Shown here one piece after another: positions 8,225-21,134 of a stretch of 64,000 nt of DNA (positions are counted from its first letter, which is position 1; every line of letters starts with the position of its first letter). A program made the position numbers and the translations under genes. Origin of the DNA: Lacrimispora sp. BS-2 (GTDB lineage: Bacteria > Bacillota > Clostridia > Lachnospirales > Lachnospiraceae); the NCBI RefSeq assembly GCF_040207125.1, contig NZ_CP157940.1:930001-994000 (forward strand). The letters run 5' to 3'. The notes under the pieces are model-generated. The model searched no databases. It saw only the letters and a program-made list of their open reading frames with translations, and was not told where the DNA came from.

Positions 8225-9568
8225 ATGAATCAGAAAATATTAGTTGCCGGCAGCGGAAAAAGCGGCATCGCCGCATCCAGGCTGATTCTTAAAACGGGCG
8301 GTGAAGTAATTCTTTATGACAGCAATGCTGCCCTTAAAAAGGATGAGCTGCTTCATCAGTTTGATGAGGGAAGGATTTCAGTTTTATTGGGGGAACTTAA
8401 AAAGGAAGACCTTACAGGCGTAAGCTTATGCATCATAAGCCCTGGTATTTCCTTAGATGCCCCCTTTGTGGCTGTCCTTAAGGAAGCGGATATCCCGGTC
8501 TGGAGTGAGATTCAGCTGGCTTACCACCATGCCAGAGGAAAGCTGGCAGCAATTACGGGAACCAATGGTAAGACAACCACTACAACCCTTACAGGGGAAA
8601 TCATGAAGGCATTCTATGAACAGGTATTTGTGGTGGGCAACATTGGAGTTCCATATACAGAGGAAGCACCAAAGACAACTGATAATTCGGTAACGGTTGC
8701 AGAGGTCAGCAGCTTTCAGCTGGAGACGATCACAGACTTCCGGCCGGATGTGAGCGGGATTCTTAACATAACGCCGGACCACTTAGATCGTCATAAAACC
8801 ATGGAATGTTACATAAAAGTAAAAGAAAGCATCACATCAAATCAGAGTCCCCGGGATGTTTGTATATTAAATTATGACGATCCTGTTTTGCGTGAGTTTG
8901 GAAAAACCATCAAACCCAAGGTGATCTATTTCAGCAGCTGCCAGATATTAGAAGAGGGCTACTGCATGGATGGGGACAGGATTATCCGAAACCATGAGGG
9001 CGAGAGAACAGAGATCGCAGACATTCACGAGATACAGCTCCTGGGCCGTCATAACCATGAGAACATCATGGCTGCAGCCGCTATCTCTGCTGAAATGGGA
9101 GTGCCCATGGAGATCATCAGTCAGGTAATCCGGGAATTCAAGGCAGTGGAGCATCGAATTGAATTTGTTGCGGAAAAGGCCGGAGTAAAATATTACAATG
9201 ATTCCAAGGGAACCAATACCGATGCAGCGATCCAGGCAATAAAAGCCATGCCAGGGCCTACGCTGCTCATTGCAGGGGGCTACGATAAGAATTCCCAGTA
9301 TGATGAGTGGATCCAGTCTTTTGACGGCAAGGTGAAGTATATGGTGCTTCTGGGGCAGACCAGGGAAAAGATCGCCGAGTGTGCGGCCAGACATGGTTTT
9401 ACCAACGTGATGTATGCGGAGGATATGCAGGAGGCGGTAAAAGTCTGCGCTTCTTATGCCAACAGAGGCGATCATGTACTCCTGTCACCGGCCTGTGCCA
9501 GCTGGGGGATGTTTAAGTGCTATGAAGAGCGCGGCGAAATCTTCAAGGAGTGCGTCCGAAGTTTGTAG
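8225..9568 (+). CDS. murD: UDP-N-acetylmuramoylalanine-D-glutamate ligase MurD
   Basis: Cytoplasmic Mur ligase adding D-glutamate to UDP-MurNAc-L-Ala with ATP. The N-terminal Rossmann-like domain (G-S-G-K-S-G-I-A) is followed by the ATP site G-T-N-G-K-T-T-T near residue 117, the Mur-ligase centre N-I-T-P-D-H-L-D-R-H, and a C-terminal domain with Y-Y-N-D-S-K-G-T-N-T-D-A and S-P-A-C-A-S-W. The 447-residue length is standard. AGGAGAG precedes ATG 8225 by 8 nt, 12 nt after mraY. The stop lies a few bases before the structured element at 9571-9720 that separates it from ftsW. Confidence 0.97.
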   Translation: MNQKILVAGSGKSGIAASRLILKTGGEVILYDSNAALKKDELLHQFDEGRISVLLGELKKEDLTGVSLCIISPGISLDAPFVAVLKEADIPVWSEIQLAYHHARGKLAAITGTNGKTTTTTLTGEIMKAFYEQVFVVGNIGVPYTEEAPKTTDNSVTVAEVSSFQLETITDFRPDVSGILNITPDHLDRHKTMECYIKVKESITSNQSPRDVCILNYDDPVLREFGKTIKPKVIYFSSCQILEEGYCMDGDRIIRNHEGERTEIADIHEIQLLGRHNHENIMAAAAISAEMGVPMEIISQVIREFKAVEHRIEFVAEKAGVKYYNDSKGTNTDAAIQAIKAMPGPTLLIAGGYDKNSQYDEWIQSFDGKVKYMVLLGQTREKIAECAARHGFTNVMYAEDMQEAVKVCASYANRGDHVLLSPACASWGMFKCYEERGEIFKECVRSL

Positions 9569-9570
9569 AA

Positions 9571-9720
9571 GCAATGAGCCATGCAGAAACATATGTAAAA
9601 TTTATGCGTGGGAGCTTGCTCACAAAGCAAAAATTTTACATATGTTTCTATAGGGCGAATGCCCGTCATGAATAATTTGGCGGCGCTTTTTTGCCAAATT
9701 ATGAATGGCATGGCGGATGA
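9571..9720 (+). ncRNA. Structured RNA element, copy A (murD-ftsW intergenic)
   Basis: Three-way-junction architecture. P1 is GCCATGC (9578-9584) with GCATGGC (9708-9714). P2 is a perfect 19-bp stem (9585-9603 with 9631-9649) whose cap has TGC/GCA and GAGC-TT-GCTC pairings. The joining segment is ATAGGGCGAATGCCCGT (9650-9666). P3 pairs 9667-9681 with 9693-9707 around a symmetric GA/GA internal loop and abuts P1. The 5' flank AGCAATGAG and 3' flank CGGAT are shared with copy B at 19873-20014, whereas all stem sequences differ but remain paired. It lies inside a presumably co-transcribed operon, has no U-tract and no coding potential. Function unknown. Confidence 0.75.
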
Positions 9721-9754: not shown

Positions 9755-10906
9755 ATGGCAGAAAAAAGGCCAGTGAGGAAAAAAAATAAACCGCGCCGTT
9801 TTTATGATTACAGTCTTTTGTTTACTGTAATATTTCTGTCTGTTTTTGGTTTGGTCATGATTTACAGCGCCAGCTCTTACGCAGCCCAGCTTAAATTCGA
9901 TGACGCCGCTTTTTTCATGATGAGGCAGGCCAAGATAGCCCTGGCGGGCTTTGTTATCATGATTGTGATATCCAAACTGGATTACCATTGGTATGCCAGG
10001 TTCGCTGTATTTGCTTACGCTCTTTCTTATGTTCTTATGATTGCCGTATCCCTGTTTGGGCGTAAGGTAAACGGAAAGAGAAGATGGCTGGGAGTGGGAA
10101 GCCTTTCTTTTCAGCCTACGGAATTTGTAAAAATTGCCCTTATTGTCATGCTGGCGGTTTTAATCGTCCAGATGGGAAGGAATATTAATACGAGAAACGG
10201 CGTACTTCTGGTGATTGTGACGACTCTTCCCATAGCGGGAATCGTGGCCGCAAATAACCTAAGTTCCGGAATCATTATCGTTGGAATCGCTTTTGTCATG
10301 CTGTTTGTGGCATGCAAAAAGAAATGGCCGTTTTTTGCCTGCGGTTTTGCAGGTGTAGGCCTGCTGGCTTTTGCCGGACCGATGGCTACTGTACTGGAAA
10401 AGCTTAATATCCTTCATGATTACCAGCTGAGCCGTATCCTGGTATGGCTGGAGCCGGAGGCTTATCCCTCCACCGGAGGCTATCAGGTGCTTCAGGGCCT
10501 TTATGCCATAGGCTCCGGCGGCCTGGTGGGCAGAGGCTTGGGAGAGAGCATACAAAAGATGGGATTTGTGCCGGAGGCACAGAACGATATGATTTTTTCC
10601 ATTATCTGTGAAGAACTTGGTCTTTTTGGAGCAGTTTCCGTGATCCTGATATTCCTCTTTATGATTTACCGGTTCATGCTCATTGCCGATAATGCGCCGG
10701 ATTTATTTGGGGCTTTGCTGGTTGTAGGCGTCATGGGACATATTGCCATACAGGTTATCTTAAATATTGCAGTTGTAACCAATACCATACCCAATACCGG
10801 TATTACCCTTCCGTTTATCAGCTATGGAGGTACCTCAGTCCTTTTTCTGATGATGGAGATGGGCATAGTCTTAAGTGTTTCTAACCAGATAAAGCTGGAA
10901 AAATAA
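9755..10906 (+). CDS. ftsW: SEDS-family peptidoglycan polymerase FtsW/SpoVE
   Basis: Polytopic glycosyltransferase that polymerises lipid II together with a class B PBP. Ten hydrophobic segments follow a basic N-terminus. SEDS signatures are visible: F-G-L-V-M-I-Y-S-A-S-S, K-R-R-W-L, Q-P-T-E-F-V-K, A-Q-N-D-M-I-F and the C-terminal P-F-I-S-Y-G-G-T-S. I chose ATG 9755 since AGGAGG at 9743-9748 is correctly spaced; the in-frame TTG at 9737 would overlap that site. Position within the dcw cluster favours FtsW or SpoVE over RodA; the two cannot be separated by sequence alone. Its natural partners are the PBPs at 3114 and 5408. Confidence 0.92.
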   Translation: MAEKRPVRKKNKPRRFYDYSLLFTVIFLSVFGLVMIYSASSYAAQLKFDDAAFFMMRQAKIALAGFVIMIVISKLDYHWYARFAVFAYALSYVLMIAVSLFGRKVNGKRRWLGVGSLSFQPTEFVKIALIVMLAVLIVQMGRNINTRNGVLLVIVTTLPIAGIVAANNLSSGIIIVGIAFVMLFVACKKKWPFFACGFAGVGLLAFAGPMATVLEKLNILHDYQLSRILVWLEPEAYPSTGGYQVLQGLYAIGSGGLVGRGLGESIQKMGFVPEAQNDMIFSIICEELGLFGAVSVILIFLFMIYRFMLIADNAPDLFGALLVVGVMGHIAIQVILNIAVVTNTIPNTGITLPFISYGGTSVLFLMMEMGIVLSVSNQIKLEK

Positions 10907-19838: not shown

Positions 19839-19866
19839 TTGACAAATATAGAATGAATGGTATAAT
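19839..19866 (+). promoter_or_regulatory. Strong promoter of the trpS leader
   Basis: Perfect TTGACA (19839-19844) and perfect TATAAT (19861-19866), 16-bp spacer. The predicted start near 19873 coincides with the conserved 5' flank (AAGCAATGAG) of structured element copy B. Confidence 0.85.
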
Positions 19867-19872
19867 ATCCAC

Positions 19873-20014
19873 GAAAGCAATGAGTAGTGCGAAACAGGCC
19901 ACGAGAAGATTTTCGTTGTGCTTGCACATAAGAAAATCTTTTCATGGCCTGTTTCATAGGACGAATGCCCGTGAGCGAACGAATCCTCCGGATTCGTTCG
20001 CTGCACTACGGATT
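19873..20014 (+). ncRNA. Structured RNA element, copy B (trpS leader)
   Basis: Same architecture as 9571-9720. P1 is GTAGTGC (19884-19890) with GCACTAC (20003-20009). P2 pairs 19891-19914 with 19932-19955 (23 of 24 positions paired, counting one G-T) and is capped by GTGC-TT-GCAC, where copy A has GAGC-TT-GCTC: a compensatory change. The joining segment ATAGGACGAATGCCCGT (19956-19972) matches copy A at 16 of 17 positions. P3 is 13 bp (19974-19986 with 19990-20002) and abuts P1. CGGAT follows. It fills the trpS 5' leader from the predicted transcription start to the ribosome site. There is no T-box consensus. Function unknown; it could be a cis-regulator or a stable small RNA. Confidence 0.78.
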
Positions 20015-20042
20015 CACGATATAAAAATCTGGAGGAACAAAC

Positions 20043-21134
20043 ATGAAAAAGATCATATTAACAGGGGACCGGCCCACCGGAAAGCTTCATATCGGCCATT
20101 ACGTTGGTTCATTAAAGCGCAGGGTAGAGCTGCAGAATTCCGGTGAATTTGACGAGATTTTTATTATGATTGCGGATGCCCAGGCACTTACGGACAATTC
20201 GGATAATCCGGAAAAGGTTCGTCAGAATATTATTGAAGTTGCGCTGGATTACCTTTCCTGCGGACTGGACCCGAAGAAATGTACCCTTTTCATCCAGTCA
20301 CAGATACCTGAGCTAACAGAGCTGTCCTTTTACTATATGAATCTGGTAACCGTATCCAGGCTACAGCGGAATCCTACTGTAAAATCAGAGATTGCCATGA
20401 GGAATTTTGAAACCAGCATTCCGGTAGGCTTCTTTACCTATCCCATCAGCCAGGCAGCTGACATTACGGCGTTCCAGGCCACCACGGTGCCCGTAGGAGA
20501 GGACCAGGAGCCAATGATTGAGCAGACCAGGGAAATAGTGCGTAAGTTTAATTCCGTGTACGGAGAAGCTTTAGTAGAGCCGGAGATTCTGCTTCCTGAT
20601 AACAAAGCCTGCTTACGGCTTCCAGGTACCGATGGAAAGGCCAAGATGAGCAAGTCCCTCGGAAACTGCATCTATTTATCCGATCCGGAAGAAGAAGTAA
20701 AGAAAAAGGTCATGAGCATGTATACAGATCCTAACCACATCCAGGTTTCCGACCCAGGAGAAATAGAAGGAAACACAGTATTCACCTACCTGGATGCATT
20801 CTGCAAGGATGAAGATTTTGAAAAGTATCTGCCAGATTATAAAAATCTTGACGAGCTTAAAGACCACTACAGACGCGGCGGCTTAGGCGATGTAAAGGTA
20901 AAGCGGTTCTTAAACAGCATTCTCCAGGCGGAGTTAGAACCTATCCGCAGGAGAAGAAAAGAATACGAGGCCAACATCCCTTACGTATACCAGATATTAA
21001 AAGAAGGAAGCGAAAAGGCAGAGGCAATGGCAGCCCGTACCTTAAAGGGTGTAAAGGAAGCCATGAAGATCAATTATTTTGACGATCTGGAATACATTGA
21101 AGAGCAGGCAAGAAAGTATAAGGGCCAGGAATAG
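20043..21134 (+). CDS. trpS: Tryptophanyl-tRNA synthetase
   Basis: Class I aminoacyl-tRNA synthetase charging tRNA-Trp. The HIGH-type motif appears as H-I-G-H-Y in [12 protein letters not shown], and the KMSKS loop as [12 protein letters not shown]-x-Q-A-L-T-D-N and P-V-G-E-D-Q are also typical. The 363-residue length fits the larger clostridial type. GGAGG is 8 nt upstream of ATG 20043. The leader contains structured element copy B instead of the T-box riboswitch that controls trpS in many Firmicutes. The 80-residue gene at 21143 follows after 8 nt. Confidence 0.96.

Follow-up and report, generated by a model that had tools for sequence, protein, structure and literature searches.

Two copies of one structured element lie in the window, by which we mean the whole 64,000 nt stretch of Lacrimispora sp. 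BS-2 DNA analysed here, and a search with our covariance model R2 returned only these two within it (Table 1). Copy A separates murD from a gene that an earlier note, made from the sequence alone, had called ftsW; judged by its NCBIfam scores this gene belongs to the FtsW/SpoVE/RodA family, the exact member being left unsettled (311.5 bits for FtsW against a cut-off of 337.5, 313.6 bits for SpoVE against 448.8). Copy B precedes trpS. The earlier note saw no promoter at copy A, which a consensus scan confirms; copy B, by contrast, is placed behind a perfect -35/-10 pair. A terminator was looked for at the 3′ end of both copies and none was found.

Table 1. Genes, promoter and element parts at copies A and B (window coordinates).
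Feature	Position	Strand	Evidence
murD; stop codon TAG (9566-9568) abuts copy A	8225..9568	+	TIGR01087, 414.5 bits
copy A, whole element	9567..9720	+	model R2, 114.9 bits; 80.2 bits with model R1, from which copy A was left out
copy A 5′ flank AAGCAATGA, conserved family-wide	9569..9577	+	read directly; alignments A1, A3, A4
copy A P1, 5′ strand GCCATGC, partner 9708-9714	9578..9584	+	read directly; fold; helix 1 covaries
copy A P2, 19 perfect pairs and a capped inner stem	9585..9649	+	read directly; fold
copy A joint, with hairpin P2b GGGC-GAAT-GCCC at 9653-9664	9650..9666	+	fold; outer pair covaries
copy A P3, tandem GA/GA (9670-9671 with 9703-9704)	9667..9707	+	read directly; fold
copy A P1, 3′ strand GCATGGC	9708..9714	+	read directly; fold
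FtsW/SpoVE/RodA-family gene, downstream of copy A	9755..10906	+	NCBIfam, under the FtsW and SpoVE cut-offs
trpS host promoter TTGACA-16-TATAAT, directly 5′ of copy B	19839..19866	+	consensus scan; five relatives with an empty site have TTGACA and TACAA there
copy B, whole element	19873..20015	+	model R2, 138.4 bits; read directly; fold
trpS, downstream of copy B	20043..21134	+	TIGR00233, 260 bits

The presence of structured elements at both places, with a common layout and differing stem letters, is confirmed by direct reading. Copy A (9569-9718) and copy B (19874-20013) share one fold made of P1, P2, P2b and P3. In copy A, P2 pairs 9585-9603 with 9631-9649 under the cap GAGC-TT-GCTC (9612-9621), and P3 pairs 9667-9681 with 9693-9707; in copy B, P1 pairs 19884-19890 with 20003-20009, followed by P2 (19891-19955), the joint (19956-19972) and P3 (19974-20002). 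The 17-nt joint is the conserved segment that had been described, but it is not unpaired: it folds by itself as the small hairpin P2b, overlooked earlier, and the modelled fold is therefore a four-way junction. Two other ways to account for the joint, both judged by eye, were a pseudoknot between AUGAG of the 5′ flank and CGAAU of the joint and a rearranged version of the Rfam family Clostridiales-1; the covarying P2b accounts for it better than either. Folding z-scores were -6.4 (A) and -9.0 (B) with flanks and -7.9 and -11.2 when trimmed, with 0/200 shuffles equally good. The opposite strands do no worse (-8.6 for A, -11.4 for B), so that folding energy alone cannot pick the strand.

Insertion beside -10 boxes and stop codons

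The element is widely dispersed. At least 28 distinct places in the source genome score at least 48 bits (one antisense match collapsed), a lower bound, since 150 of 2129 candidates from a first look were scored. Copy number varies within the genus, some lineages carrying many more than others: among the matches listed on both strands for 25 genomes, with up to 52 candidates scored in each and again as lower bounds, seven genomes have at least 29-44, 17 have at least 1-4 and one has none. R2 matches (E <= 1e-6) occur in 180 of 299 genus representatives of Lachnospiraceae and, in a sample of 196 genomes of the order, in 44, the weakest accepted match of this second sample having 42.3 bits; with up to 10 and 16 candidates scored per genome in the two samples, copy numbers are lower bounds here too. 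As a negative control, 26 loci without the element, 22 of which had been fetched by a 16-base joint motif, gave R2 scores of 27.8 bits at most, mostly at that motif.

Comparison of 60 orthologous regions of 12 loci, classed by eye from alignments or side by side, gave 33 empty sites, 19 filled ones (among them a degenerate pyk site in G011; G and L numbers denote our genomes and loci) and eight remnants. The murD-ftsW junction is empty in five of eight relatives (G001, G006, G016, G021, G024), filled in two (G011, G013) and internally deleted in one (G005); the trpS site is empty in five relatives and filled in three. At L020 the source genome has the element and none of the four relatives compared does, a gain in the source lineage or, less simply, several losses. 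Copies are thus insertions and the element is mobile. The argument that variable stems exclude a mobile palindrome fails on this point, since empty sites show insertion, and the differences between the stems of copies come from co-evolution in place once a copy has inserted.

In its scattered copies and the empty sites of relatives the element is MITE-like, but by eye copies have no terminal inverted repeats, the only inverted segment being P1, several bases inside the ends. A test for flanking repeats gave p = 0.33 in the source genome (21 copies) and 0/5000 permutations in the named set (69 copies). Flanks share at least 11 bases in seven of 208 copies against 0.25 expected, of which three are pieces of neighbouring elements and two have the same right end. 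A 17-base repeat at L193 was considered as a target-site duplication and set aside, given that L137 has an identical right end, which may be the element's own.

Insertion is phased to the -10 box, many copies lying directly 3′ of one and many others at a stop codon. Among 90 copies from other genomes, 22 have an exact TATAAT at offset -12 relative to model position 1, while no other offset within 60 nt has it in more than one copy; allowing one mismatch, the count is 25, and 7 at the next highest offset (-9). These 90 copies come from at most 89 genomes and some are orthologous. In the source genome, 21 copies give 7 exact boxes at this offset, 11 within one mismatch and 14 within two. With the usual numbering of a -10 box, model position 1 is presumably the +1 base. 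On rough ORF calls, the 5′ setting of the 90 copies is a -10-like box in 32, the stop codon of a same-strand ORF in 26, a T-tract in eight, a tRNA in four and elsewhere in 20; the majority thus lack a -10 box at this position.

At five loci the box belonged to the host. TTGACA and a -10 box, TACAA(T), are present already in the empty trpS site, and in the filled site the element comes directly after it; a -10 box likewise pre-exists in empty sites at four other loci (a MerR-type gene, L011, L020 and L013). Stop-codon sites with empty relatives (rplQ, groEL, L012, L008) also carry -10-like letters, for example GTATAA and TGTAA, and for this reason we infer that one target preference may cover both classes.

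Several positions recur. Several species of the genus, and G081 from a different genus, have a copy at the 3′ end of one gene, whose protein ends in ...MENQDY (L066, L070, L072, L073, L076, L397; L023/L050 in the source genome), and some insertions are therefore old and kept in place. Other copies lie, in different genomes, 3′ of genes with near-identical endings (...AAAGAGATAA; L386, L408, L420, L422, L421, L366, L393) or behind tRNA genes (L376, L403, L418, L425), a pattern suggestive of sites that are used recurrently or are old and shared.

In many copies the 3′ part, namely P3 and the P1 strand and sometimes the joint, is repeated in tandem beyond the element (L010, L014, L018, L338, L356, L111, L096, L201), as if the end of the element had been duplicated repeatedly. 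Partial copies are found in the source genome as well: L017 lost P2, L022 has a terminator-like hairpin in place of its 3′ half and L052 misses its 3′ part.

Paired change in the stems

The strong covariation of stems that had been proposed is borne out by covariance models built from the copies and searched across genomes of the family. Among own-genome copies (n = 19, copy A held out), 26 of 52 pairs changed on both sides, and model R1, built from own-genome copies without copy A, recovers it (Table 1). The figure is 48 of 52 for 111 distinct matches of named and neighbouring genomes, partials included, and 49 of 52 for 99 matches fetched by R2 (90 loci, other genomes), both alignments being fitted to the model and so biased towards its structure. 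For the 99 R2 matches the covariation score was 0.740, compared to at most 0.113 with the pairing slid, and 0/500 shuffles scored as high. In this alignment (A4), which was fetched and aligned by R2 and hence leans to its structure, the outer pair of P2b is G-C in 81 of 97 cells, C-G in nine, U-A in four, G-U in two and A-U in one; alignment A3 (named loci, L083-L201) cannot test P2b, its loci having been picked by the exact 16-base joint motif. Of the P3 pairs in the model, two do not form in 65 and 76, respectively, of the 99 A4 sequences, and we take these two as the tandem GA site.

At nine of ten fixed loci, each a set of orthologs, pairwise comparison gave 503 cells with two-sided Watson-Crick changes and, among one-sided cells, 333 G.U, 122 A.C and 170 other mismatches; cells are non-independent, and the structures were derived from these alignments themselves, a bias towards G.U relative to A.C. 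A symmetric score for P2 in 89 usable copies of the 90 gave 73 G.U vs 24 A.C, and per copy 36 lean to G.U vs 13 to A.C (p = 0.0014). Split by group, over the 122 copies that passed our end-finding rules (others were dropped), G.U:A.C is 50:18 in P2 and 51:15 in P3 for named genomes, 29:10 (n = 27) and 11:8 (n = 23) for further copies, mostly of the same genus, and 9:11 and 4:1 for own-genome copies (n = 20). Pairing thus favours one strand, in agreement with the earlier proposal of selection on RNA-like structure: with G.U above A.C on the drawn strand, it is the fold of this strand that is selected, own-genome P2 being even and showing no such excess. After insertion the stems evolve in place through paired substitutions, and loops and joints are retained. 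Templated repair may contribute alongside selection on the stems, because double transversions slightly exceed double transitions in the two-sided cells of the nine loci (265 vs 238).

A probable mobile element and rival readings

Taken together, A and B probably belong to a large family of structured, gene-less miniature mobile elements of about 140 bp, spread across Lachnospiraceae and selected for their folded strand. As a mechanism, the many copies directly 3′ of a -10 box would form the transcript start; the folded strand, be it RNA transcribed from the promoter of the host or single-stranded DNA of that polarity, would be recognised by an enzyme acting in trans, so that pairing rather than letters would be selected. 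As a by-product each insertion would leave the host gene with a long, folded leader or spacer, with possible effects on the processing or decay of its mRNA.

Neither of two candidate partners tracks the copy-rich genomes. An IS200/IS605 derivation, with a Y1 transposase in every copy-rich genome, does not agree with G008 and G014 (at least 35 and at least 31 element matches), in which none was found, and a search for reverse transcriptases returned no RVT_1 match in G011 (at least 34). The source genome encodes one reverse transcriptase outside the window (L318, 1232-2230), an Ec107-like retron protein, with matches akin in length and score in G005, G006, G007, G008, G010, G013, G014, G016, G021 and G024; R2 finds no element in the 3.6 kb of L318.

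Empty sites and multi-copy spread would also be expected of a conventional MITE acting at the DNA level, mobilised by a cut-and-paste transposase with a preference for -10-like targets and having a fold that matters as DNA only or not at all. Clostridiales-1, of similar plan, even has the exact direct repeats that such transposases leave (see below). We nevertheless consider this account unlikely: the element of A and B shows no clear target duplication, its sole inverted repeat is the inner P1, and a passive repeat should decay, yet stems at fixed loci stay paired with G.U above A.C.

Conserved loops and joints with covarying stems also suit a cis-regulatory RNA, riboswitch-like or a protein-bound leader, that would govern a single regulon comprising ftsW, trpS and the remaining genes downstream of copies; 46 of the 68 copies with a gene within 300 nt downstream (rough ORF calls) have it on the same strand. 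The downstream gene is on the opposite strand in the other 22, however, and downstream genes are unrelated and vary between genomes, with no coherent function kept across species. An ftsW-specific role, as suggested earlier, is at odds with the element lying beside trpS, groEL, rplQ, pyruvate-kinase and other unrelated genes, and it fails at murD-ftsW itself, where sister species have the same genes without the element or, in one case, with an internally deleted one. A regulon is accordingly very improbable in our estimation. Copy A seems to be an old insertion that a few species share within the genus, and it probably does not serve as a dedicated ftsW switch; of the earlier suggestion, a generic local effect on mRNA processing is possible.

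Two further readings we find scarcely tenable. A multi-copy small-RNA gene with its own promoter would explain the phased TATAAT (22 of 90 copies, 25 within one mismatch), but most copies miss the box, the promoter was the host's before insertion at five loci and no terminator follows A or B. Covariation from mutation, by template switching that copies a change in one arm of a hairpin into the other, would fit two-sided changes with few intermediates and the excess of double transversions, but such repair treats both strands alike, while copies lean to G.U on the drawn one.

If a mobile element it is, ready-made folded leaders and spacers would be supplied to many genes of gut Lachnospiraceae, and sister species that have the same gene with and without it offer a natural experiment on the effect that a long duplex at +1 has on expression. 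It is also a warning that strong covariation can flag a mobile element and not a dedicated regulator.

Comparison with known families

The best reading of these data is a new element family with an unusual promoter-phased position. We found no published description of it in a literature search mostly outside subscription journals. As the earlier note expected, no Rfam family reaches its cut-off for A or B, and matches to microRNA families were dismissed as generic long-hairpin matches. Twenty loci from other genera also reached no family's cut-off at the element, while nearby rRNA and two tRNAs did.

By description, without comparing sequences and without claiming membership, the element resembles structured MITEs carried in UTRs. 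The NEMIS or Correia repeats of Neisseria are small non-autonomous mobile repeats whose RNA stem-loops are, in the parts of PMC2229807 that concern us, proposed RNase III substrates within adjoining mRNAs; they are described with terminal inverted repeats, whereas the present element has the inner P1 repeat only, a multi-arm fold and freely varying stems. The bcr1-bcr3 repeats of the Bacillus cereus group are likewise dispersed, non-coding and MITE-like, often in UTRs or operon spacers (PMC3446304); they belong to one species group, and the passages of that paper dealing with them do not mention a -10 phase, whereas the element of A and B is family-wide.

The nearest Rfam family is Clostridiales-1 (RF01699), whose model gives 34.2 bits for A and 36.4 for B against a gathering cut-off of 48. 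Against 20 own-genome loci it gives two matches at E <= 0.001, none above the cut-off, and a search of the source genome as a whole returned none above it either. This RNA of Clostridiales and the human gut is entered in Table 1 of Weinberg et al. 2010 (PMC2864571) as "RNA? y, cis-reg n, switch n". It too is dispersed in Lachnospiraceae (above its cut-off in 129 of 299 sampled genomes), and full-length sub-threshold alignments show a GCUUGC-capped long first hairpin, middle and last hairpins and one closing stem. It differs in that its conserved joint is another one, its middle arm is larger and an additional hairpin lies on the 3′ side. With the counting used above, its first hairpin is even (G.U:A.C 19:20 in 27 of 40 loci).

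Clostridiales-1 copies also look mobile. Among the 31 of 40 loci with both ends (L206-L225 and L298-L317, other genomes, many from one genome), 20 have exact 7-8 bp flanking direct repeats, compared to 3% of mismatched pairs; for the element of A and B none is established. Such repeats do not belong to the Rfam definition of Clostridiales-1 and emerged from the present analysis. These repeats suggest that Clostridiales-1, listed by Rfam as an "sRNA" family, is a mobile element as well. A bolder comparison, which we rate as a long shot, is with SINEs: the element would be an RNA without a gene that begins at the transcription start and is copied, by way of the folded RNA or a DNA strand exposed in the transcription bubble, into new -10/+1 sites. 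Each productive insertion behind a ready-made promoter would then be re-transcribed from its own first base, and Clostridiales-1 would be a second such lineage.
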